A stretch of 64,000 bases of DNA from an uncultured Rikenella sp. (GTDB lineage Bacteria; Bacteroidota; Bacteroidia; Bacteroidales; Rikenellaceae). Positions 1,946 to 34,519 of the stretch are shown here, one piece after another (the first letter of the stretch is position 1; every line of letters begins with the position of its first letter). The stretch covers positions 1 through 64,000 of the forward strand of contig CANQXP010000003.1 in the NCBI GenBank assembly GCA_947627885.1, read 5' to 3'. Both the position numbers and the translations under genes were made by a program. The notes under the pieces were generated by a model. The model did not search any database. It worked only from the letters and a program-made list of their open reading frames with translations, and was not told where the DNA came from.

Positions 1946-2551
1946 CTATTTCGGGAGCCGGTATTCCCGGCGGAATGTGTAGTAGACCGTGCGCGAGACG
2001 TTGAAGGTACGGCAGATATGGTTCACTGTGCGTCCCTGCCGGAGCATGGCGGCAATCTGGTGGCGGTTGTCGATCAGGATGCGTTGCTTGACGTTGCTGC
2101 CTTGTGGCCTGCCGATGTGTATGCCTTCGGCCCTGCGCAGGGCGAGGGCCTCTTTGGTGCGCATGGACATCAGGTTGTGCTCTATCTCGGCCACCAGTCC
2201 GAATGCGAAAGCGAGGACTTTGCTATTGATGCTGTTGTCGAACGCGTAACCGTCTTTGGTGCTGTAGAGGATGATGTTTTTTTCGAGGCACCGGCCCATG
2301 ATGGACATGATCTCGGTGAGGGTGCGGCTCAGGCGCGAAATCTCGGTGACGATCAGCGTGTCGCCGCTGTTCATCCGGCGGAGCAGGGGGCCGAGCTTGC
2401 GGTCTTTGTTCTGCGTTTTTCCACTGACCGTCTCGGTTACCCACCGATCGATCGTCAGGTTGCGCGATTCGGCGAATTTTCTGATTTCTTCTTTCTGGTT
2501 TTCAATGTGTTGCTTTTCGGTGCTGACTCTCAGGTAGGCGATTACAGGCAT
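1946..2551 (-). CDS. Serine recombinase / DNA invertase (Mpi-like)
   Basis: Catalytic N-terminus MPVIAYLRVSTEKQ, SRLSR motif, GRPQGS linker and C-terminal HTH; start taken as MPVIAYLRVS rather than the track's longer start (2632). Confidence 0.88.
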   Translation of the reverse strand: MPVIAYLRVSTEKQHIENQKEEIRKFAESRNLTIDRWVTETVSGKTQNKDRKLGPLLRRMNSGDTLIVTEISRLSRTLTEIMSIMGRCLEKNIILYSTKDGYAFDNSINSKVLAFAFGLVAEIEHNLMSMRTKEALALRRAEGIHIGRPQGSNVKQRILIDNRHQIAAMLRQGRTVNHICRTFNVSRTVYYTFRREYRLPK

Positions 2552-2655
2552 AGGTTCACGGATTAGTGGAAAAATGATGCTCAAAGTAAAAAATATGACA
2601 GATAATATTATAGCTCTATCGGTCTTTTCCATGACGATTTACCTGTGTCGAAAAG

Positions 2656-2817
2656 CGTTCGTTTAAATGAACACTTCAAAGACAATGAAATACGAACCAT
2701 GATTTATGACAGAAACCGAATCGTATCTGCCAGAAAGCTAATAAATTAGTCATAAAAATATAAGGGATTTAAATATTATGATTATCTTTGTTTCAGCCAG
2801 TTATATATAAACGAACG
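2656..2817. promoter_or_regulatory. Candidate invertible promoter segment flanked by 10-bp inverted repeats
   Basis: CGTTCGTTTA at 2656-2665 and TAAACGAACG at 2808-2817 are exact reverse complements; a TATCTTTG -7-like box lies inside at 2783-2790; adjacent to a serine invertase. Confidence 0.5.
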
Positions 2818-2877
2818 TTTATTTGACAGGTTTATCTATGTAACTGGTTGTTTGTTAATTTGTTACATAGTAGTTTT

Positions 2878-3510
2878 ATGAAAGAGGACAAAAATGGCAT
2901 TATCCGGGGTTATTTCCGTCCTAAATCGGGAGCGGACGACCTGCAAGGGGGAATTACGGCGCTCGTGGAAACCGGAGTAGCGAGCGGAAATCTGTTTTTC
3001 GAGCAGGAAGGAACGGCTGAATTGGAGCGGCTGCTCGGTTTACTTGAAAAGGGCGATACGATTGTCGTGTTGCGGTTACGGGATATCTGCCGGAATATCG
3101 GCGAGCTTTTCGGACTGGTGCGCCGGTTGTTGTTGCAGGGAGTGGTTTTGAAATCACTGGGCGAGCCGTGGTTCCGCCTGTCGGGGGATATGATGCAGGA
3201 TGCGGCGCTGTATGAATTGATCAGCCATCTTTATGACCTTTCGTGTTGTTTGGGAGGGGAGGTATCGACGGCTGTCCCTGCGGCCCGCAAACCGGTAGGG
3301 CGTCCGCGGGGTATTCGGGCGGACTATCGCAAAAAGCTGGAGGCGGCTCTCAAACTTTACACGGAACGCAGCGAACTGTCGGTCGCGGAAATTTGCGGAA
3401 CGGTGGGGCTGAACCAGCGGACTTTCTACCGCTATCTCGACCAGCAGGGTTTCCGGGTGGTGCACCGGCCGAAAGGGCGTAAGGCTAAACAGAGTGCCCG
3501 GACTTCGTAG
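2878..3510 (+). CDS. Recombinase-like HTH protein with degenerate catalytic motifs
   Basis: IIRGYFRPKS in place of YLRVS; GDTIVVLRLRD..; GRPRGI linker; HTH LSVAEICGTVGLNQRTFYRYL; ORF track start 2848, internal ATG at 2878. Confidence 0.6.
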   Translation: MKEDKNGIIRGYFRPKSGADDLQGGITALVETGVASGNLFFEQEGTAELERLLGLLEKGDTIVVLRLRDICRNIGELFGLVRRLLLQGVVLKSLGEPWFRLSGDMMQDAALYELISHLYDLSCCLGGEVSTAVPAARKPVGRPRGIRADYRKKLEAALKLYTERSELSVAEICGTVGLNQRTFYRYLDQQGFRVVHRPKGRKAKQSARTS

Positions 3511-6966: not shown

Positions 6967-8214
6967 ATGGAAAGACGAACATTCAAAGTCACCTTCTTTT
7001 TACGTAAAGCCAGAATCGGCAAGAACGGACTGGCTCCCATTCTTGCCCGCATTACTACCAACCGACTGGTGCAGGACGTGTATATACAGTGTTCTACCGA
7101 CCCCGGCCGCTGGGACCAGACCAAAGAGCGTGCTACCGGAAAGAACCGGTATGCCAGCGAAGTGAATGCCTATCTGGACGATTATCGGGCCCGGATTATA
7201 TCTATCCGTAACGACCTGCTGAAAGAAGGTTACGAGGGTAATGCCGCGGAGATAAAATACCGTTTGCAGAATCCGGGCAAAGCCACGCGGATGTTTCTGG
7301 AGGAACTGTCCGCCTTTTGCGAAATGAAACAGATAGAGGTGGGCGTTTCGATTACCCAGCTCACCGCCAACAAATTCCACCTGATGCTCCGTTATATCCG
7401 GGAGTTCACCGCGGAGGAGTACGGCAAATCCGACATGCCGATAGGTGCCGTGAACTACGTCTATCTTCAGAAATTCCAATTATTCGTTCAGACCCGGCAC
7501 AACTGCCACCATAATGGAGCCGTCAATCTGCTCAAAACTTTACGTAGCTTCTTTGTCTATTGCATCCGGAACGAATGGATGGAAAAGAACCCGATGAAAT
7601 CCCTCAGCCTTCGGGAGGAGGTCACCGAAATGAAAGCCCACCTCACAAAAGAGGAATTGGAACGGATGCTTGCCAAAACGATGCCGAACGAACGGTTGGA
7701 GAGGGTACGGGACGTATTCGCCTTCTGCTGCCTGACCGGCCTCGCATTTACCGACGCCGACCATTTACGTGCCGAGGACATCGGACAGGACGAAGGCGGG
7801 AACTTCTGGATACACAAACCCCGACAGAAGACCGGCGTTATGAGCGTGATTCCACTGCTACCGATAGCCCATGGTATATTGGAAAAGTATGCGGACGATC
7901 CGGCCTGCCGCGAGAAAGGGAAACTGCTACCTGTCTGCTCGAACCAGCGTATGAACTCTTACCTGACGGAGCTGTCCGATATATGCCGGATAGACAAAAA
8001 ACTGACCACGCATTGCGCCCGGCACACTTTTGCCTGTGTAGCGCTGGACTATGGTATGCCTATCGACATTATCGCCAAAATCGGCCATACGAAAGTGAAC
8101 ATGACTCGCCATTATGCTCGACTGTCCGATGGGGCCGTGCTGCGGGAGATGACCCGGCTCGGCGAGCGGCTCGACCTGAAACCGGACACCGAGGCTCGGA
8201 TGGAGGCGGAATAA
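6967..8214 (+). CDS. Tyrosine recombinase (phage integrase family, Bacteroidetes SAM-like type)
   Basis: CCLTGLAFTDADHL, HCARHTFACVALDYGMPIDIIAKIGHTKVNMTRHYAR catalytic motifs. Confidence 0.93.
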   Translation: MERRTFKVTFFLRKARIGKNGLAPILARITTNRLVQDVYIQCSTDPGRWDQTKERATGKNRYASEVNAYLDDYRARIISIRNDLLKEGYEGNAAEIKYRLQNPGKATRMFLEELSAFCEMKQIEVGVSITQLTANKFHLMLRYIREFTAEEYGKSDMPIGAVNYVYLQKFQLFVQTRHNCHHNGAVNLLKTLRSFFVYCIRNEWMEKNPMKSLSLREEVTEMKAHLTKEELERMLAKTMPNERLERVRDVFAFCCLTGLAFTDADHLRAEDIGQDEGGNFWIHKPRQKTGVMSVIPLLPIAHGILEKYADDPACREKGKLLPVCSNQRMNSYLTELSDICRIDKKLTTHCARHTFACVALDYGMPIDIIAKIGHTKVNMTRHYARLSDGAVLREMTRLGERLDLKPDTEARMEAE

Positions 8215-8468: not shown

Positions 8469-9800
8469 ATGTCACAACGTATCCAACATATAATTTCCGA
8501 AATAAAAGACCAATATCTCATAGAAGACTCTCTAAGGCCGTGGATTATAGGTTTTAGCGGAGGTAAAGACTCTACCGCGTTGTTACAGTTGGTATGGTAT
8601 GCTCTTTTGCAAATACCGGAAGACAAGCGGAAACGACAAATTCATGTCGTTTGCAATGACACTTTAGTTGAAAACCCTGTTATTCAGGATTATGTTAGGG
8701 ATGTATTAGCTAAAATATCGCGAGCATCTGTAGAGAAAGGTCTACCGGTTTACGTAGAACAGACTATACCTCGTTTGGAAGATACATTTTGGATTAATGT
8801 TATTGGGCGCGGTTATCCTGTGCCTAACAATGCATTTAGGTGGTGCACGGACAAAATGAAAATTAAGCCGACATCCAGATTTATATTAGAACAAGTGGAT
8901 GAGAATGGCGAGGCTATAATTTTAATCGGCACTCGAAGTTCGGAGAGCGCAACACGAGCAAGATCCATTAAAAAGCATCAAATTAAAGGGAAGCGGTTAA
9001 CTAAGCATCCACACCACCCCAATACATTCGTATATGCGCCAATCAAAGATCTATTTTTAGAAGAAGTCTGGTATATCATTAATGCGATGACTTCTCCTTG
9101 GGGTGCTGATAATTCTAAGTTATTTCAGATTTACTCTGATGCAAGTGCGGATGACTACGAGTGTCCTACAATGGTAACGGATAAAAGCCATAGCTCGTGT
9201 GGGCAAAGTCGATTCGGGTGTTGGACTTGTACCGTTGTGAAAGAAGATAAATCTTTAACAGCTCAGGTTGCAAAAGGACAAACTTGGTTACAACCATTAT
9301 TGGCATTGAGGACAAGTATGTTTGATGAAAGGAATATTTCAGAAAACCGCTTACCCACACGGAGAAATGGACAGACTGCTGTAAATGACGAAGGTCATAA
9401 CCAGGGAAATTACACTCCGAAATACAGAGCTAAACTTTTGGAGCAACTTCTATCTGCACAGCGAAAGATGCAGGAAGAACATCCGGAAATTGAACTAATC
9501 AATAATCAGGAATTGGTTGCTATTCAAGTAATATGGCATAGGGATTTATTGTTCGATTACAGAGTATCTGATATATACAACAGAGTTTACGAAAGAGAAT
9601 TTGAAATGAAAAAAGACGCCGAAAAAATACAGAAGGAAATAGACCTGCTTAAATCTGTATGTGAAAATCCGTCTGACTTTGATTTAATTCAGGAACTTCT
9701 CATTATGCAGAAGAACAAAGCTCTACTTAACAGGAAAAGAGGTCTGAAAGATGATATGGAACGAGTAATTGAAAAATACATTAACAGAGAGATTGCCTAA
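8469..9800 (+). CDS. dndC: DndC-like phosphorothioation ATP-pyrophosphatase/sulfurtransferase
   Basis: PP-loop SGGKDSTALLQL; RWCTDKMKI; SCGQSRFGCWTCTVV; first gene of a translationally coupled dndC-D-E-like operon. Confidence 0.9.
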   Translation: MSQRIQHIISEIKDQYLIEDSLRPWIIGFSGGKDSTALLQLVWYALLQIPEDKRKRQIHVVCNDTLVENPVIQDYVRDVLAKISRASVEKGLPVYVEQTIPRLEDTFWINVIGRGYPVPNNAFRWCTDKMKIKPTSRFILEQVDENGEAIILIGTRSSESATRARSIKKHQIKGKRLTKHPHHPNTFVYAPIKDLFLEEVWYIINAMTSPWGADNSKLFQIYSDASADDYECPTMVTDKSHSSCGQSRFGCWTCTVVKEDKSLTAQVAKGQTWLQPLLALRTSMFDERNISENRLPTRRNGQTAVNDEGHNQGNYTPKYRAKLLEQLLSAQRKMQEEHPEIELINNQELVAIQVIWHRDLLFDYRVSDIYNRVYEREFEMKKDAEKIQKEIDLLKSVCENPSDFDLIQELLIMQKNKALLNRKRGLKDDMERVIEKYINREIA

Positions 9801-11920
9801 TGTATATCAAGGAGATAGAGCTTAACAACTTCCGGATATATAAGGGCGTTAATCGTATAGCCCTTCTTCCGTCTAAAGATAAGAATATCATTGTCATCAG
9901 TGGCAAGAATGGCTTTGGAAAAACTACTTTTCTCATGGCTTTAGTGTGGTGCCTTTACGGCAAGCAAATGGAGAAAGTTGATGAGTTATATGAAAAAGAG
10001 ATAAGAGATAAAGGGAATTATACCAAATATATTTCCAATAGCTTAAATAGAAAGGCGTATCGTGACGGAGAAACCGAATTTTCGGTATCTATCACTTTCT
10101 CAGACGTAAAAATTCCGGATATAACCTGTAATGAAGTCACAATACGGCGGTCGTACAACATTATCTCCAGCACAGCCGATAAAGTTGAAGTTCTTATTGA
10201 TGGGCGACACAACGAATTGATTGATGATTTAACGAAAGAGAACCAGCGAGGCGAGGAAATCTTTATCCGCGATTTTATCTTACCTATAGAAATAGCTAAA
10301 TTTTTCTTTTTTGATGCTGAGAAAATAGTCTCACTAGCAGAAGTTGCCTCTAACGCTCAAAGGCAGCAACTTAGTAAAGCTTACTCGGAAGTATTGGGGA
10401 TTCAAAAATATGAAGACCTTAAGGCTAACCTCGAAGAAAAACAAGACGAATATCGCCGTCGATCTGCAAAACCTGAGGAAAAAGAAGAATTATCACAGTT
10501 AAGTGCCGATATATCAAAAACAAGCACGAGGATAATATACCTGCAGAATCAAATTGAAGACTTACGGCATGAAAAAAATCAAAAAGAAAAAGAAGCTGAT
10601 GAAATTCAAAGACGACTTATCCGCGAGGGGGATAAAATGTCTGTTGAAGAATTGAATAAGTTAAAAGTCGACCGAGATAAATTAGAGCAAACCAAAACGG
10701 ATGTACAAGACAAATTGCGGAATTTACTTGACATTATTCCATTTGCCCTTGTCGGAGACATCCTTGTCTGCGTTTCAGAGCAGCTCCATAACGAAAGGGT
10801 AATTTCAGAGCAAAAATTCCGGCAAGAAGATGTAGCAGAAAAAATAGATCTTATAAGAGCCGATATTGAGCGCGAAAGGCAAAAGTCGAATATAATCATA
10901 GATAATGTTCGTATTAGAGACTTTTATGAAGAGCAGATTAAGAGATTGGTGAAAAAGTATTTCTATTCTGATTTAGTGGATGTTCCGGACAATGTGAAGA
11001 TCTTACATGATTTCTCCAGTAGTGAGGCCAATGAATTTAATCAATTGGTAAACACCATAAAACATAGCTTTAAAGAGACCTTTTCGCAGATCAATAACGA
11101 ATATTCTTCTGTTAAGAATCAGATAGATTCCATAAGTAGAAAAATAAGAGACGCAGAAAAAAGTGCAGAAGATGAGCATGTTGCAAAATTGCGCAATGAT
11201 AAAGAAACACTCGATCACCAAATTATGTCGATCGAAAAAGATATAGAAGCCTTATCTATGCAGATAGGCGAACTCAATAACCAGAATAAGACATTTAAGC
11301 AAAAACAAGAACTCCTTCGTAAACGGATTGACGAGTCCACCTTTTATTCCGAAAAAGAACAACGGACCAAGCAATTAATAACTGAGCTTCAAAGCTTTCT
11401 AAACCTATTCAAAGAGGAAAAGAAAAAATCGCTGGGAGAAAAGATGCTCAACTCATTGAATTTACTGCTTCATAAACAGAACTTTATTACTAAAGTAGAT
11501 ATTGACATCAGCTTATCGGGGGATGATATTGATATCGTACTTTACGATAAAAATGGTTCAATTATCGACAAAAGTTCCTTGTCCATGGGTGAGCGTCAAA
11601 TGTACGCTTCCGCATTGTTGAGTTCTTTAGTTGATGAGTCCGATATAGAGTTTCCGGTATTTATTGACAGTCCAATGCAAAAATTTGACGAGCAACATGC
11701 TGAAAACATTATAAAGCATTTTTACCCGAATGTGTCTAATCAGGTTGTCATATTTCCCTTGATTAATAAAGAGCTTACTGAAAAAGAGTATTGTTTGTTA
11801 AAATCCAAAATCAGTAAGGCATATTTGATCAATAATACGACTACTGATAGCTCGGAATTCATCGAAGCAACGCCCAATACATTCCTTGAAATATATAAAA
11901 GCCTTTACAATGCAAATTAA
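9800..11920 (+). CDS. dndD: DndD-like SMC/RecN-type ATPase
   Basis: Walker A SGKNGFGKTTFL, coiled coil, SLSMGERQ signature and VFIDSPMQKFDEQHAENI. Confidence 0.9.
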   Translation: MYIKEIELNNFRIYKGVNRIALLPSKDKNIIVISGKNGFGKTTFLMALVWCLYGKQMEKVDELYEKEIRDKGNYTKYISNSLNRKAYRDGETEFSVSITFSDVKIPDITCNEVTIRRSYNIISSTADKVEVLIDGRHNELIDDLTKENQRGEEIFIRDFILPIEIAKFFFFDAEKIVSLAEVASNAQRQQLSKAYSEVLGIQKYEDLKANLEEKQDEYRRRSAKPEEKEELSQLSADISKTSTRIIYLQNQIEDLRHEKNQKEKEADEIQRRLIREGDKMSVEELNKLKVDRDKLEQTKTDVQDKLRNLLDIIPFALVGDILVCVSEQLHNERVISEQKFRQEDVAEKIDLIRADIERERQKSNIIIDNVRIRDFYEEQIKRLVKKYFYSDLVDVPDNVKILHDFSSSEANEFNQLVNTIKHSFKETFSQINNEYSSVKNQIDSISRKIRDAEKSAEDEHVAKLRNDKETLDHQIMSIEKDIEALSMQIGELNNQNKTFKQKQELLRKRIDESTFYSEKEQRTKQLITELQSFLNLFKEEKKKSLGEKMLNSLNLLLHKQNFITKVDIDISLSGDDIDIVLYDKNGSIIDKSSLSMGERQMYASALLSSLVDESDIEFPVFIDSPMQKFDEQHAENIIKHFYPNVSNQVVIFPLINKELTEKEYCLLKSKISKAYLINNTTTDSSEFIEATPNTFLEIYKSLYNAN

Positions 11921-13484
11921 CATCAAAACATCCGAGCAGAATCAGGAGGTGGTTAGAAAACTGACGACCAAACTCCCTTATGGTACAAAAGAGAATGTTA
12001 TTGCCCGAATCGCTTTAGGTTACTCTCTGCAAACCGGTAGGAAATTTTTGACCAGTGAATTTTCATTGTATGATTCCAAAGGAAAAGAATACAAAGATCA
12101 TATTTTGTTCGAAGCTAAATATAGAGATTTTTTTATTGCTTTAATTTGTCAGCATTATGGGCTGTATAAAACCGACGATAATATACCCAAATATATCAAA
12201 TTGCACATAGATCATGGATTGGAGTTATTGGATGGAATATTCGAGGATAGCATAAATTATACGTTTTTTGATTTCTTAGTCGAATATATAGAGAAAGGGA
12301 TATTGTCGTTGACTGATTTGAATGTATCATTAGATGCTGTAAAAAATAATCAGCAGCATATTGAGAAATCGTATTGCTCAAATCCAATACGAATTCAGGT
12401 CGGTTCGTCCTTAGATACAAATGAACCCATATATCTCAACCTGAATGATACCTCAATATATAATAATTGTCATATAGCGGTGGCTGGGAATTCAGGAACG
12501 GGTAAAACTCAATTTGCATTAGAGTTTATCTCTCAAATGTATGAGCAGTCTAACGGACATGTTAATTTCATTTATCTGGACTTCAAAGGCCTGAAACGAG
12601 AAGATATCAAACAACTCGACTCTTTTTTCCAAAACACCAAGACAACCTTGATTAATGTTCCAGACACGAAGTTTCCCGTTAATCCCTTAACATTTATTGA
12701 TAATGTTAATGAAGTCAATAGAACTATGGGCATTGACAAATTTGTTGATATAGTATGTAAATATTCCAACTTAGGTATTAAACAAAAAGGCCAACTACGA
12801 GAAGCAACCTATGAGGCATTCTTAGAACAAAAAGGAGGCACCTATCCAACACTGAAACAAGTCAATAAGAAATTACAGGAGCTGGTCGGTGAGAAAAAGG
12901 ATATCCTGACCGAAATAATGGATGAACTTAGTAGATATCCCATCTTTATTGACGACCCCAAAAATGAGTCAGTGTTTTTTAATACAAACTTATATCTTTC
13001 ATTGTCTGGGGATTTATCCAATTCTATTCGGTTTACCTCCCTTTTCCTCATCATAAATTACATTTATAATACTTTTATGAATATGGAAAACTCTCCTGTG
13101 GAGGACAATATCAAGGCCTTAAGGTATGTTATCTTGATTGATGAAGCACACATATTATTTAAAGAGAAAAAATATCAAGACATCCTGGAAAAGTTGTTGC
13201 GAGAAATCAGATCTAAGGGTGTGAGTGTTGTGCTTTTATCGCAAGGCATTGATGAATATAATCAGCCTAACTTTGATTTTTCTTCAATGTGTGAAATCTC
13301 TTTTTTACTCAATATAAAGGATAAGAACATTAAGTCAATGGAAAAGTTTATGGGCCTATCCGGGAGGAATAGTGCTATTTTAGCTCGTAGCATGGAGCAA
13401 ATTGGTATAGGACAAGCGATATCGAATATTAAAGAATACGACCTCGCCAAAAGATTCAATATAAAACAATATTATCGACATTAG
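11910..13484 (+). CDS. DndE-like N-terminal domain fused to HerA/FtsK-type ATPase
   Basis: N-terminus resembles DndE (KLPYGTKENVIARIALGYSLQTG..); then Walker A AVAGNSGTGKTQFALEF and Walker B YVILIDEAHILF; overlaps dndD by 11 bp. Confidence 0.8.
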   Translation: MQINIKTSEQNQEVVRKLTTKLPYGTKENVIARIALGYSLQTGRKFLTSEFSLYDSKGKEYKDHILFEAKYRDFFIALICQHYGLYKTDDNIPKYIKLHIDHGLELLDGIFEDSINYTFFDFLVEYIEKGILSLTDLNVSLDAVKNNQQHIEKSYCSNPIRIQVGSSLDTNEPIYLNLNDTSIYNNCHIAVAGNSGTGKTQFALEFISQMYEQSNGHVNFIYLDFKGLKREDIKQLDSFFQNTKTTLINVPDTKFPVNPLTFIDNVNEVNRTMGIDKFVDIVCKYSNLGIKQKGQLREATYEAFLEQKGGTYPTLKQVNKKLQELVGEKKDILTEIMDELSRYPIFIDDPKNESVFFNTNLYLSLSGDLSNSIRFTSLFLIINYIYNTFMNMENSPVEDNIKALRYVILIDEAHILFKEKKYQDILEKLLREIRSKGVSVVLLSQGIDEYNQPNFDFSSMCEISFLLNIKDKNIKSMEKFMGLSGRNSAILARSMEQIGIGQAISNIKEYDLAKRFNIKQYYRH

Positions 13485-27330: not shown

Positions 27331-29889
27331 CTATTCCGGAATAATCTCGAAGATCTCCACATCCCCTTCCAGCTCCATTTTCGCCGCGCCTTTGGCAACG
27401 GTTATCTGGAAGAACGGAGCGTCGATGGCCGTTTCTGAGACTACCGTCCCTTTTGCATCGAGTTGCCTGAGCTTCGGTTGGGCCGAGGGGCTGGTTTTCA
27501 GCAGCAGGGTATATCCCGTGGTATTCGCAGGGATTTCAAAAGAGAGTACGCCGCTGTTGATAAAAGAGGTGCCCGGATTCCTGTCGAAAGCATAAAGCGC
27601 TTTTGCCGCCAGCGAGTCCGCCACATCGATGCGGAAACCGAGCTTTTCCGCACTGACCGGATTGACTTCGAACGACCGGATCGCGGCCCAGTTCGTTTTG
27701 GACGACTTGAGTCGCTTGAGCCGCACATACCGCGCCTTCACCGGATCGCCCGCCCAGCGGATGACATATTGCTTCACGAGGCTGTCGGTGAGCGGCAGCC
27801 ACGTATGGCCGTCCGCCGAATATTCGAGGATGGCATGGTCGAAATAATCCACATCGTCCTTCGAATTACGCCCCTGGAGGATGTTGACCTCCGACACCTC
27901 CCGCACGCATCCCAGGTCGGCGCCGATCCAGCTCCTGCCGTTCTGCGATACTCCGGACGTATAGAAGGTCGTGGAATCGTTGTCGAACATCAGTTTCGCC
28001 TGCGGAGTCCCCAGGTTGCGGAACGAGCCTATACCTTTATAGGAAGCCGGTACGGTTCCGGCGATCTTGGTATAGAACGCCGCCAGAATGTCATCCATCG
28101 TATGCTCGTAGAACGGCTGGAGCTTCATCGTTCCCGATTTGTGGGCGTTGTACGCCTTGCGGTCGTCCTCGCTCATCAGGTTCTGCACATAGGCCGCCCA
28201 TAGCGCCGAATCGTCACCTGTTTCGTACAGCTTGATGATCTCCAGGGCTTTCCGTCCCCGCGTCCCCAGCTTGCCGAATTCGACCAGCCACGGGCGCAGC
28301 TCATTCAGCAGCTCTGCGTTTTTGCATCCCGCTTCCATTTCGGCCGGAACTTTCTCAATCTTTTCGAACTCTTTCAGCAGGGCGTCGTACTGCTCCGGGG
28401 TGTAATTCCCGATGCGGAACGTTTCGGTTTCCCACGACTCCGCCCGCCGGTAGCCCGTTTCCGTGTCGCACGAGTGGATCGCGAACGTCCGGTATGCATC
28501 TTTTACCTCCGGCGCCAGCTCCACGATCCCGCGCTCCCAGTTGTCGATCGGGTTATAGGCACCGATATTCCAGGTGTAGTCCGCCACCCCGTACAAAGCC
28601 AGTTTCGACGCCTCGCCGTGCTCCATCGGGTTGCTCACCAGCCCGCTGACATTCTCCGCCGTCAGCGTCGTGTCGAGGCCGTAGACCGGCCCCTGCATCA
28701 CGATATGGCGCACGTAGTCCGTCACCGGATAGTTCCACCAGAAGAAAGCCGGCCGTTTGATCCGGGAGTTGACCCAGTCCAGCGTCTGGCGGGTCATGTC
28801 GGTGCATACGGCATCCCCCGTCCAGAACACCTCGACCGACGGGTCGAGCGTGTTGCCGTAGACGACCAGACTGCCTTTCGGTGTCGGATTGGCCCACAGT
28901 TTCGTGTAGTCCGTCGGGCAGACGACCAGCGGGTTCACGTCCCCCTTCGCCTTCACGAACTCCTTGTTGAGTCGGTTCAGCAGCTCCGTTTGTTTGACCG
29001 GATCGGTTCCCTCGCCCGAAATGTCGTCGAAGAAGATCGCGAACGAGCGCACGCCCAAGTCGTACATCATCTCGAATTTATGAACCAGGTTGTTGTAGTC
29101 CTCTTCGTTCCACTTGATATCCTGCCCCGGGTGGATCGCCCAGAAGAAATCGACGTAGTTGCGGTTGCAGGCCTCCACCAGCTCGCGGATATTCCGCGCC
29201 TCCTTTTCCGGATAGGGCAGCCGCCAGTTGGGGGAGCTGTGGTATGGATCGTCTTTGGGACCGTATAGGTAACTGTTCATCTTGAACCGGCCGTAGAAGT
29301 CGATCAGTGAGAGCCGCACCTCATGCGGCCACGGCGTGCCGTAGAAACCTTCGACTACGCCCCGCAGGGGGAGATCCGGATAGTCGTTGATCTCCAGGTA
29401 GGGAAGCGTGAGGTTTTCGGCGATCGGGCTCTCGGCGATCTGCCAGAGCGTCTGGATGCCGTAGAAAGCCCCTCGCTCGTCATATCCGGTGATGGCGATC
29501 CCTTTCTTGCCGATGCTCAGCGCATAAGCGCCCGAAACTTCTTTCACACCGGCCTTGGCGGCGGCTTCCGGGCCGAAGTCTATGGTGAGTTTCACGCCTG
29601 TTTTCCCCGCGGTGACGAACCCAAGGTCATTGGAGAATTTCCCCTGTTTGTCGATCAGCCGTATCCCTTGGGAGTAGTCCAGCCTGCCGTCGTCATAGAT
29701 ATTCAGGCGGTGTGGTGTCGGATTGATGATGAGTCCTTTGTGGTCCAGTTTTTTTCCGGGTACCATCAGTACGTCCTGCGCTTCGGATCGCTGCGAGGAG
29801 AGGTCGAAATTGCTCTCCTGGGCCGAAAGGGTGCCGCAAACCAGAATGCCGGCGGCCAATGCTGTCAGTAAATTTTTCTTTTTTGCCAT
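27331..29889 (-). CDS. GH84 beta-N-acetylglucosaminidase (O-GlcNAcase-like)
   Basis: GVVEGFYGTPWPHEVRLSLIDFYGRFKMNSYLYGPKDDPYH; FFDDISGEGT. Confidence 0.93.
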   Translation of the reverse strand: MAKKKNLLTALAAGILVCGTLSAQESNFDLSSQRSEAQDVLMVPGKKLDHKGLIINPTPHRLNIYDDGRLDYSQGIRLIDKQGKFSNDLGFVTAGKTGVKLTIDFGPEAAAKAGVKEVSGAYALSIGKKGIAITGYDERGAFYGIQTLWQIAESPIAENLTLPYLEINDYPDLPLRGVVEGFYGTPWPHEVRLSLIDFYGRFKMNSYLYGPKDDPYHSSPNWRLPYPEKEARNIRELVEACNRNYVDFFWAIHPGQDIKWNEEDYNNLVHKFEMMYDLGVRSFAIFFDDISGEGTDPVKQTELLNRLNKEFVKAKGDVNPLVVCPTDYTKLWANPTPKGSLVVYGNTLDPSVEVFWTGDAVCTDMTRQTLDWVNSRIKRPAFFWWNYPVTDYVRHIVMQGPVYGLDTTLTAENVSGLVSNPMEHGEASKLALYGVADYTWNIGAYNPIDNWERGIVELAPEVKDAYRTFAIHSCDTETGYRRAESWETETFRIGNYTPEQYDALLKEFEKIEKVPAEMEAGCKNAELLNELRPWLVEFGKLGTRGRKALEIIKLYETGDDSALWAAYVQNLMSEDDRKAYNAHKSGTMKLQPFYEHTMDDILAAFYTKIAGTVPASYKGIGSFRNLGTPQAKLMFDNDSTTFYTSGVSQNGRSWIGADLGCVREVSEVNILQGRNSKDDVDYFDHAILEYSADGHTWLPLTDSLVKQYVIRWAGDPVKARYVRLKRLKSSKTNWAAIRSFEVNPVSAEKLGFRIDVADSLAAKALYAFDRNPGTSFINSGVLSFEIPANTTGYTLLLKTSPSAQPKLRQLDAKGTVVSETAIDAPFFQITVAKGAAKMELEGDVEIFEIIPE

Positions 29890-30098
29890 TTTTTAATGAA
29901 TCGTGTGTTGCGAATTTGCCGGATGCTTCCTGCGCTCGGCTTGTTTTGCACAAGATAGCATTTTAATCCGGTCTCCCCATCACGATTCGCTCCATTTTGC
30001 CGTAATATCCTGACAGGCATAATTATGCAAACCACCCTGAATTACGCTCTCAAGAAAATGAAATAAGCATGCAATCAGCCGATTACATGCTTATTTCG

Positions 30099-33943: not shown

Positions 33944-34519
33944 ATGAAAAAAATGGGTTTTGTCAGGTATCGTCCGGCGGCGGCCGAGCTCCGCGCGGCG
34001 ATAGAAAGATTGGCGGCCTGCGGCGTGGCCGAAGCCGATATCCTGGTGGGTGCGGACATTCGGGAGTGCTGGCAGGCGCTTGCGGCCGGCGACACGCTGG
34101 TGGTCGGTGAACTGACCGAAGTGTGCACCGATATCGTCAGCCTGCTGGCGTTGCTGAGCGAAATGGAAGAGCGGAATGTGGCTTTGCAGTCCATCTCGGA
34201 CCCGTGGCTGGATATGTCGCAGGGATCGCATGCGCGCGCCCGGCTGCTGAAAGGGTTGAACCGTTTCGGCTGGGACAGCCTCGCTATCGGGGTGAACGAA
34301 CGCGCCGCCGGGCAGCCGAGGATCCGCAAACGCGGCCGGCCTCAGGGTATTTCGGGCGAACGGCTTCGCAAATCCCAGACCGGAATGCTGCTCTACCAGC
34401 ATTCGGACCTGAGCGTGGCCGCCATCTGCGATATGATCGGCCTGGAGCAGCGGAGCTTCTACCGTTACCTGAACGCCAACAAAGAGGTGCCGCGTCGCCG
34501 CCGGCACGGCGAAGCATGA
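33944..34519 (+). CDS. Recombinase-like HTH protein with degenerate catalytic motifs (paralog of 2878-3510)
   Basis: FVRYRPAAAE at the catalytic position, GDTLVVGELTEVCTDIVSLLALLSEMEERNVALQSISDPWLD, KRGRPQGIS, HTH LSVAAICDMIGLEQRSFYRYLNAN. Confidence 0.6.
   Translation: MKKMGFVRYRPAAAELRAAIERLAACGVAEADILVGADIRECWQALAAGDTLVVGELTEVCTDIVSLLALLSEMEERNVALQSISDPWLDMSQGSHARARLLKGLNRFGWDSLAIGVNERAAGQPRIRKRGRPQGISGERLRKSQTGMLLYQHSDLSVAAICDMIGLEQRSFYRYLNANKEVPRRRRHGEA

Follow-up and report, generated by a model that had tools for sequence, protein, structure and literature searches.

A putative Mpi-type promoter-inversion switch between a serine invertase gene and its catalytically dead paralog in Rikenella

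We analysed a 64-kb stretch of DNA from an uncultured Rikenella species (hereafter the window; contig 3 of a genome assembled in 120 contigs and 79% complete) and found two divergent recombinase-like genes on either side of a segment of ~142 bp, which carries a single promoter-type box between two palindromic sites of the kind used by small serine invertases. On balance we favour reading this locus as a promoter-inversion switch of the Mpi type, with an Mpi-family invertase on one side and, on the other, a catalytically dead paralog that is a probable DNA-binding regulator. The features of the locus are as follows.

1946-2551, minus strand: Mpi-family serine invertase gene (201 aa), from profile matches and active-site motifs
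2653-2664, minus strand: left arm, palindromic invertase-type site AAGCG-TT-CGTTT, core at 2658-2659, outer half weak (10.8 bits)
2666-2806, no strand: putative invertible segment between the exact 10-bp repeats, anatomy as at the loci on contigs 26 and 50
2707-2713, plus strand: TGACAGA motif inside the segment, 76 bp upstream of the box, conserved in R. microfusus
2783-2790, plus strand: -7 box TATCTTTG of a putative Bacteroidetes promoter pointing to the regulator, conserved in R. microfusus
2809-2820, plus strand: right arm, palindromic invertase-type site AAACG-AA-CGTTT, core at 2814-2815 (26.7 bits), conserved in R. microfusus
2878-3510, plus strand: catalytically degenerate serine-recombinase paralog, probable DNA-binding regulator, from residue loss, a retained HTH and a resolvase-like model fold

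Results

An Mpi-family invertase diverges from a degenerate paralog

The minus-strand reading frame spans 1946-2632 and its most likely start is at 2551 (MPVIAYLRVSTEKQ); the ATG at 2632 was rejected as the start of the invertase because it is out of frame in an alignment with R. microfusus. In profile searches, the product matched Pfam Resolvase (E=1.8e-32) and, over nearly its full length, the NCBIfam master DNA invertase Mpi family NF009949 (E=2e-78), with a score of 262.7 bits that falls just below the curated cut-off of 272. The catalytic Ser and Arg of small serine recombinases are both present, in RVS and SRLSR motifs that align with gamma-delta resolvase. An invertase ortholog in another genome, G001, is without arms and has a TACCTTTG box pointing toward the invertase. 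The window genome also encodes a second Mpi paralog on contig 50, 66% identical to the window invertase and with similar sites, which makes it doubtful that any switch at the window locus is self-contained, as the first-pass annotation of this DNA had proposed.

The plus-strand gene runs from an ATG at 2878 to 3510. It matches Pfam Resolvase marginally, scoring 24.6 bits where the cut-off is 23.3, and it lacks the catalytic Ser and Arg pair expected of an active serine recombinase. The position of the nucleophile Ser is occupied by Lys, Ser, Glu or Gly among nine members of the family, and the second catalytic Arg is replaced by Asp in all nine relatives in the alignment; the C-terminal HTH region is well conserved across the nine members. 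An AlphaFold model of the protein, predicted with moderate confidence (pLDDT 73, pTM 0.48) from an input alignment that included the invertase, has the Tn3 and gamma-delta resolvases as its best structural matches. Because the Ser position is variable, the second Arg has become Asp, the HTH is conserved and the model is resolvase-like, we take the product, on sequence grounds, to be a catalytically dead recombinase, and one that plausibly acts as a DNA-binding regulator. The divergent pair of an Mpi-like invertase and a degenerate paralog that had been described earlier is supported by the Mpi-family match (just under its cut-off), the active-site motifs and the residue loss in the paralog.

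Judged by the regulator protein, Rikenella microfusus DSM 15922 (71%) and a Rikenellaceae MAG (98%) are the nearest named relatives, which makes the window genome most likely that of a Rikenella species. Within the window genome, a regulator paralog that is 46% identical lies on contig 26, and further dead-recombinase paralogs are found in the window itself at 33944-34519 (34% identical) and on contig 7 (G000:C7:69334-69924, locus L032; 48% identical). The contig 7 copy comes directly after a gene with a weak Fimbrillin_C match, a placement that suggests a link between dead recombinases and fimbriae.

Elsewhere in the window, DndC-like, PbeC/DndD-like and DndH-like genes stand in a row at 8469-13484, and a putative phage-type integrase at 6967-8214 adjoins them. 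From its gene content, the stretch at 8469-13484 is a probable DNA phosphorothioation defence cluster.

Palindromic sites flank a single promoter box

The exact 10-bp inverted repeat reported in the first-pass annotation was verified at 2656-2665 (CGTTCGTTTA) and 2808-2817 (TAAACGAACG). Each arm is itself palindromic around a 2-bp core, the form expected of the crossover site of a small serine invertase. TATCTTTG is the sole TAnnTTTG in the intergenic region when both strands are scanned, so that the earlier description of exact repeats around a box holds, with invertase-type palindromes and a single TAnnTTTG between the divergent genes. A -33 TTTG matching this box was looked for at the window promoter and was not found. 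Next to the left arm, the minus strand carries a near-box, TGTCTTTG, that could have served the invertase as a second promoter; it is missing in R. microfusus, and this reading was rejected.

We compared these elements with what would arise by chance. When the 329-bp intergenic region was put through dinucleotide shuffling, 10.9% of the shuffled sequences had a 10-bp inverted repeat, and a TAnnTTTG box appeared in 20% of shuffles of the segment, indicating that neither the repeat alone nor the box alone is significant. Taken together, however, the two go beyond chance, because the arms rank high in an independent matrix and the distance from box to core is common to 13 segments. The site matrix was trained on 14 distinct arms from other loci, which score 21-33 bits, with the window arms excluded. 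With this matrix the right arm, at 26.7 bits, is the top hit of the whole 64 kb, and the left arm, at 10.8 bits, comes third among distinct sites. The right arm also resembles ARACGTWCGT, a putative site consensus of B. fragilis, a resemblance that serves as a lead only.

A motif similar to the TGACAGA in the segment occurs 70-81 bp upstream of the box in segments of the contig 50 type and at one further locus (L041). A second TGACAGA-type motif lies at 2596-2602, between the invertase start and the left arm, and is likewise conserved in R. microfusus. The motifs at 2596-2602 and 2707-2713 are possible operators.

Segments at paralogous loci are inverted between species

Two paralogous loci in the window genome, on contigs 26 and 50 (C26 and C50), share this anatomy. 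At C50, the Mpi gene is separated from a divergent gene, whose product has Mfa-type fimbrillin domains, by a perfect 24-bp inverted repeat with its copies 177 bp apart. Across the window, C26 and C50 loci and their Rikenella relatives, all 13 segments contain exactly one TAnnTTTG, on one strand only, and in all 13, at the three loci, the box lies 22-23 bp from the recombination core as measured from arm coordinates. This shared register is our strongest reason for taking the window segment to be the same device as those at C26 and C50.

The C26 segments of the window genome (G000) and of G004 align with that of R. microfusus only when reverse-complemented (inverted z 12.5-12.7, direct 1.3-2.0), and in the comparison of G000 with R. 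microfusus both flanks align directly. In R. microfusus the C26 promoter points toward the regulator; in G000 and G004 it points the other way. In G007, the box of a C26-type segment too diverged for alignment also points to a related regulator. Similarly, the C50 promoter is directed toward the Mpi gene in G000, G003 (R. microfusus), G004 and G007, and toward the fimbrillin gene in G005 and G006; segments of the two orientation groups align only inverted (z 4.5 to 11.7), and their flanks align directly. Both orientations are therefore present at homologous loci of the genus, at C26 and at C50.

At the window locus itself, the promoter points to the regulator in all three species compared (G000, a sister MAG and R. 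microfusus), and a search by alignment for the inverted segment in these three available species found none. R. microfusus has kept a block that takes in the -7 box and the right arm, and much of the remaining segment has diverged. Invertase sites in inverted orientation do surround the promoter at this locus, the left one being weak: it is imperfect in each of the three species, in its outer half-site in the window species and the sister and in its inner half-site in R. microfusus. The proposal that the locus is a phase switch choosing between invertase and regulator is supported in part, by the choice between invertase and divergent gene at C50 and by the inversion between species at C26, but the window locus shows one orientation in three of three species and has a weak left arm.

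Invertases of other Rikenellaceae genera had no similar pair of sites upstream at the loci scanned (about half of all loci, those that the start-motif pattern picked up), and the self-inverton architecture may therefore be confined to Rikenella.

Most further copies of the repeat tip a dispersed element

The first-pass annotation had also proposed a genome search for further AAACGAACG repeats. These are abundant, with 100 copies where the reversed control has 9; the longer palindrome TTAANCGWWCGNTTAA, with at most one mismatch, occurs 54 times per strand and its control 0 times. Most of the paired copies, however, form the ends of a hairpin-rich dispersed element, mostly 264-390 bp long, without a promoter box. 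Among contig regions with exact-tip pairs, 15 of 16 belong to or resemble dispersed elements, and 14 of 15 are without a box. Several site matches fall between housekeeping-type genes. Membership in dispersed elements, missing boxes and housekeeping-type neighbours rule out the AAACGAACG count as a census of invertible promoters.

Dispersed elements with Mpi-type sites at both ends were located at L009-L016 and L018-L024, which lie on contigs C5, C6, C8, C10, C11, C15, C27, C28, C33, C42, C52 and C58. An Rfam search of the dispersed elements tested gave no match. In R. microfusus (G003), AAACGAACG is on the plus strand throughout a 680-kb stretch of contig C2 (299634-981112) among the matches listed, with several copies at dispersed-element ends; this bias suggests a strand-polarised insertion or motif. 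In a congener (G002), AAACGAACG occurs on contig C1 (for example at 29161-29969 and 647285-647320; L117-L122) both in terminator-like hairpins with arms 27 bp apart and in tandem units of ~265 bp.

Discussion

We consider it probable that the window locus is an Mpi-type switch. The assignment of the invertase to the Mpi family, the matrix rank of the right arm, the shared box register, the inversions at C26 and C50 and the conservation of the box and right arm all speak for this reading. Counted against it were the single orientation in three species, the weak left arm, the lack of a -33 TTTG, the G001 ortholog without arms, and the chance rates. We infer that the window copy may still flip, that the promoter on its segment is probably active, and that one or other of the two Mpi paralogs would act on it.

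Some of the same observations would fit a switch that is locked, perhaps recently, or decayed. Decay of the left arm could have deprived an ancestral inverton, similar to the ones at C26 and C50, of efficient recombination, leaving the promoter to drive the regulator constitutively and the invertase to be expressed from another promoter. The common orientation in all three species, a weak left arm whose damage falls in different halves in different species, and the armless ortholog in G001 are all in keeping with such a history. However, free flipping would leave three species in one orientation one time in four. In the window species and the sister, moreover, the left arm keeps its inner half and the right arm is intact throughout, and the segment length and box register agree with loci that do vary; we therefore regard a locked switch as unlikely, if a serious alternative.

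Resolvases autoregulate at their own res sites, and on this model the palindromes could instead be operators: the invertase or the dead paralog would bind there to repress the divergent promoters or draw them into a loop, without inversion. Divergent recombinase-like genes do flank the paired sites, the paralog retains its DNA-binding region and not its catalytic residues, and one site lies ~23 bp downstream of the box, within the expected 5' UTR. The segments that such sites bound at C26 and C50 are nevertheless inverted between species, and the cores are inverted relative to each other, as inversion requires, so that an operator pair seems improbable. Least probable by far is a functionless chance repeat or a fragment of the dispersed element: although a 10-bp repeat is seen in 11% of shuffles and the genome holds 100 AAACGAACG copies, the window segment is ~142 bp long with its box in the C26/C50 register, whereas dispersed elements are rich in hairpins, mostly measure 264-390 bp and nearly all lack a box; R. 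microfusus, moreover, conserves both the right arm and the box.

If the window locus is an Mpi-type switch, a recombinase dimer would bind each of the two inverted palindromic sites, and strand exchange by a tetramer at the 2-bp AA/TT cores would then flip the segment together with its single promoter. In the assembled orientation the promoter would transcribe the regulator through the right site; in the flipped orientation it would transcribe the invertase. A flip about both cores would place the box on the minus strand at 2690-2683, which is ~130 bp away from the start codon of the invertase. One site would end up in the 5' UTR of whichever gene is on. Should the invertase have no other good promoter, expression of the flipping enzyme would be set by the orientation of the segment, creating feedback. 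There is no obvious support for a simple latch by which the invertase-on state would be drained, because four of six species at C50 are in that state in their assemblies.

This type of device has several known counterparts. Salmonella Hin acts at hix sites as a small serine invertase on palindromes with a 2-bp core, and promoter orientation sets which gene is transcribed. The Rikenella arrangement shares these properties, including promoter orientation as the selector, but the hin gene lies within its invertible segment, whereas the Rikenella invertase gene lies outside. In the res region of Tn3 and gamma-delta, a small serine recombinase gene diverges from its neighbour around its own binding sites. 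Rikenella has the same layout of recombinase gene and divergent neighbour around sites, but with two inverted sites and interspecies inversion at homologs in place of a three-subsite resolution site. A further counterpart is the master invertase Mpi of B. fragilis, which inverts 13 regions; its gene is described as lying head-to-head with one for a tyrosine recombinase (PMC4747536). The two systems have in common a serine invertase that matches the NCBI Mpi family (just under the cut-off in Rikenella), short palindromic inverted repeats around a TAnnTTTG promoter by surface-structure genes, and several sites per genome; in contrast to B. fragilis, the Rikenella invertase gene adjoins the segment and its own promoter can be on the inverton, as is directly seen at C50. 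In a defined gut community surveyed for invertons, nearby invertases were generally not placed where the inverton promoter could drive them, apart from one potential exception group (PMC11892184). Those PhaseFinder-type gut invertons likewise consist of promoter segments between short inverted repeats, with fimbrillin genes among those regulated; the C50 invertase differs from them in being positioned for drive by the inverton promoter in four species. The literature searched contained no paper on this arrangement in Rikenella. The Rikenella arrangement is a variant of promoter inversion of the Mpi type: the inverton can carry the promoter of the invertase itself, and inactive recombinase paralogs are among the regulated genes.

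We can tentatively extend this to a self-gated circuit, a possibility that we would not yet rate as likely, in which Mpi has its main promoter on its own inverton and phase-variable dead paralogs perhaps occupy or regulate the same sites, in a recombinase-based network acting on fimbriae. If this is true, flipping would turn the flipping enzyme itself on or off. Mpi-type promoter inversion shapes surface variation in gut Bacteroidales, and an invertase promoter on its own invertible segment is a testable feedback circuit for invertase control, which the cultured species Rikenella microfusus makes accessible to experiment. The dead paralogs, for their part, would exemplify serine recombinases turned into phase-variable regulators.
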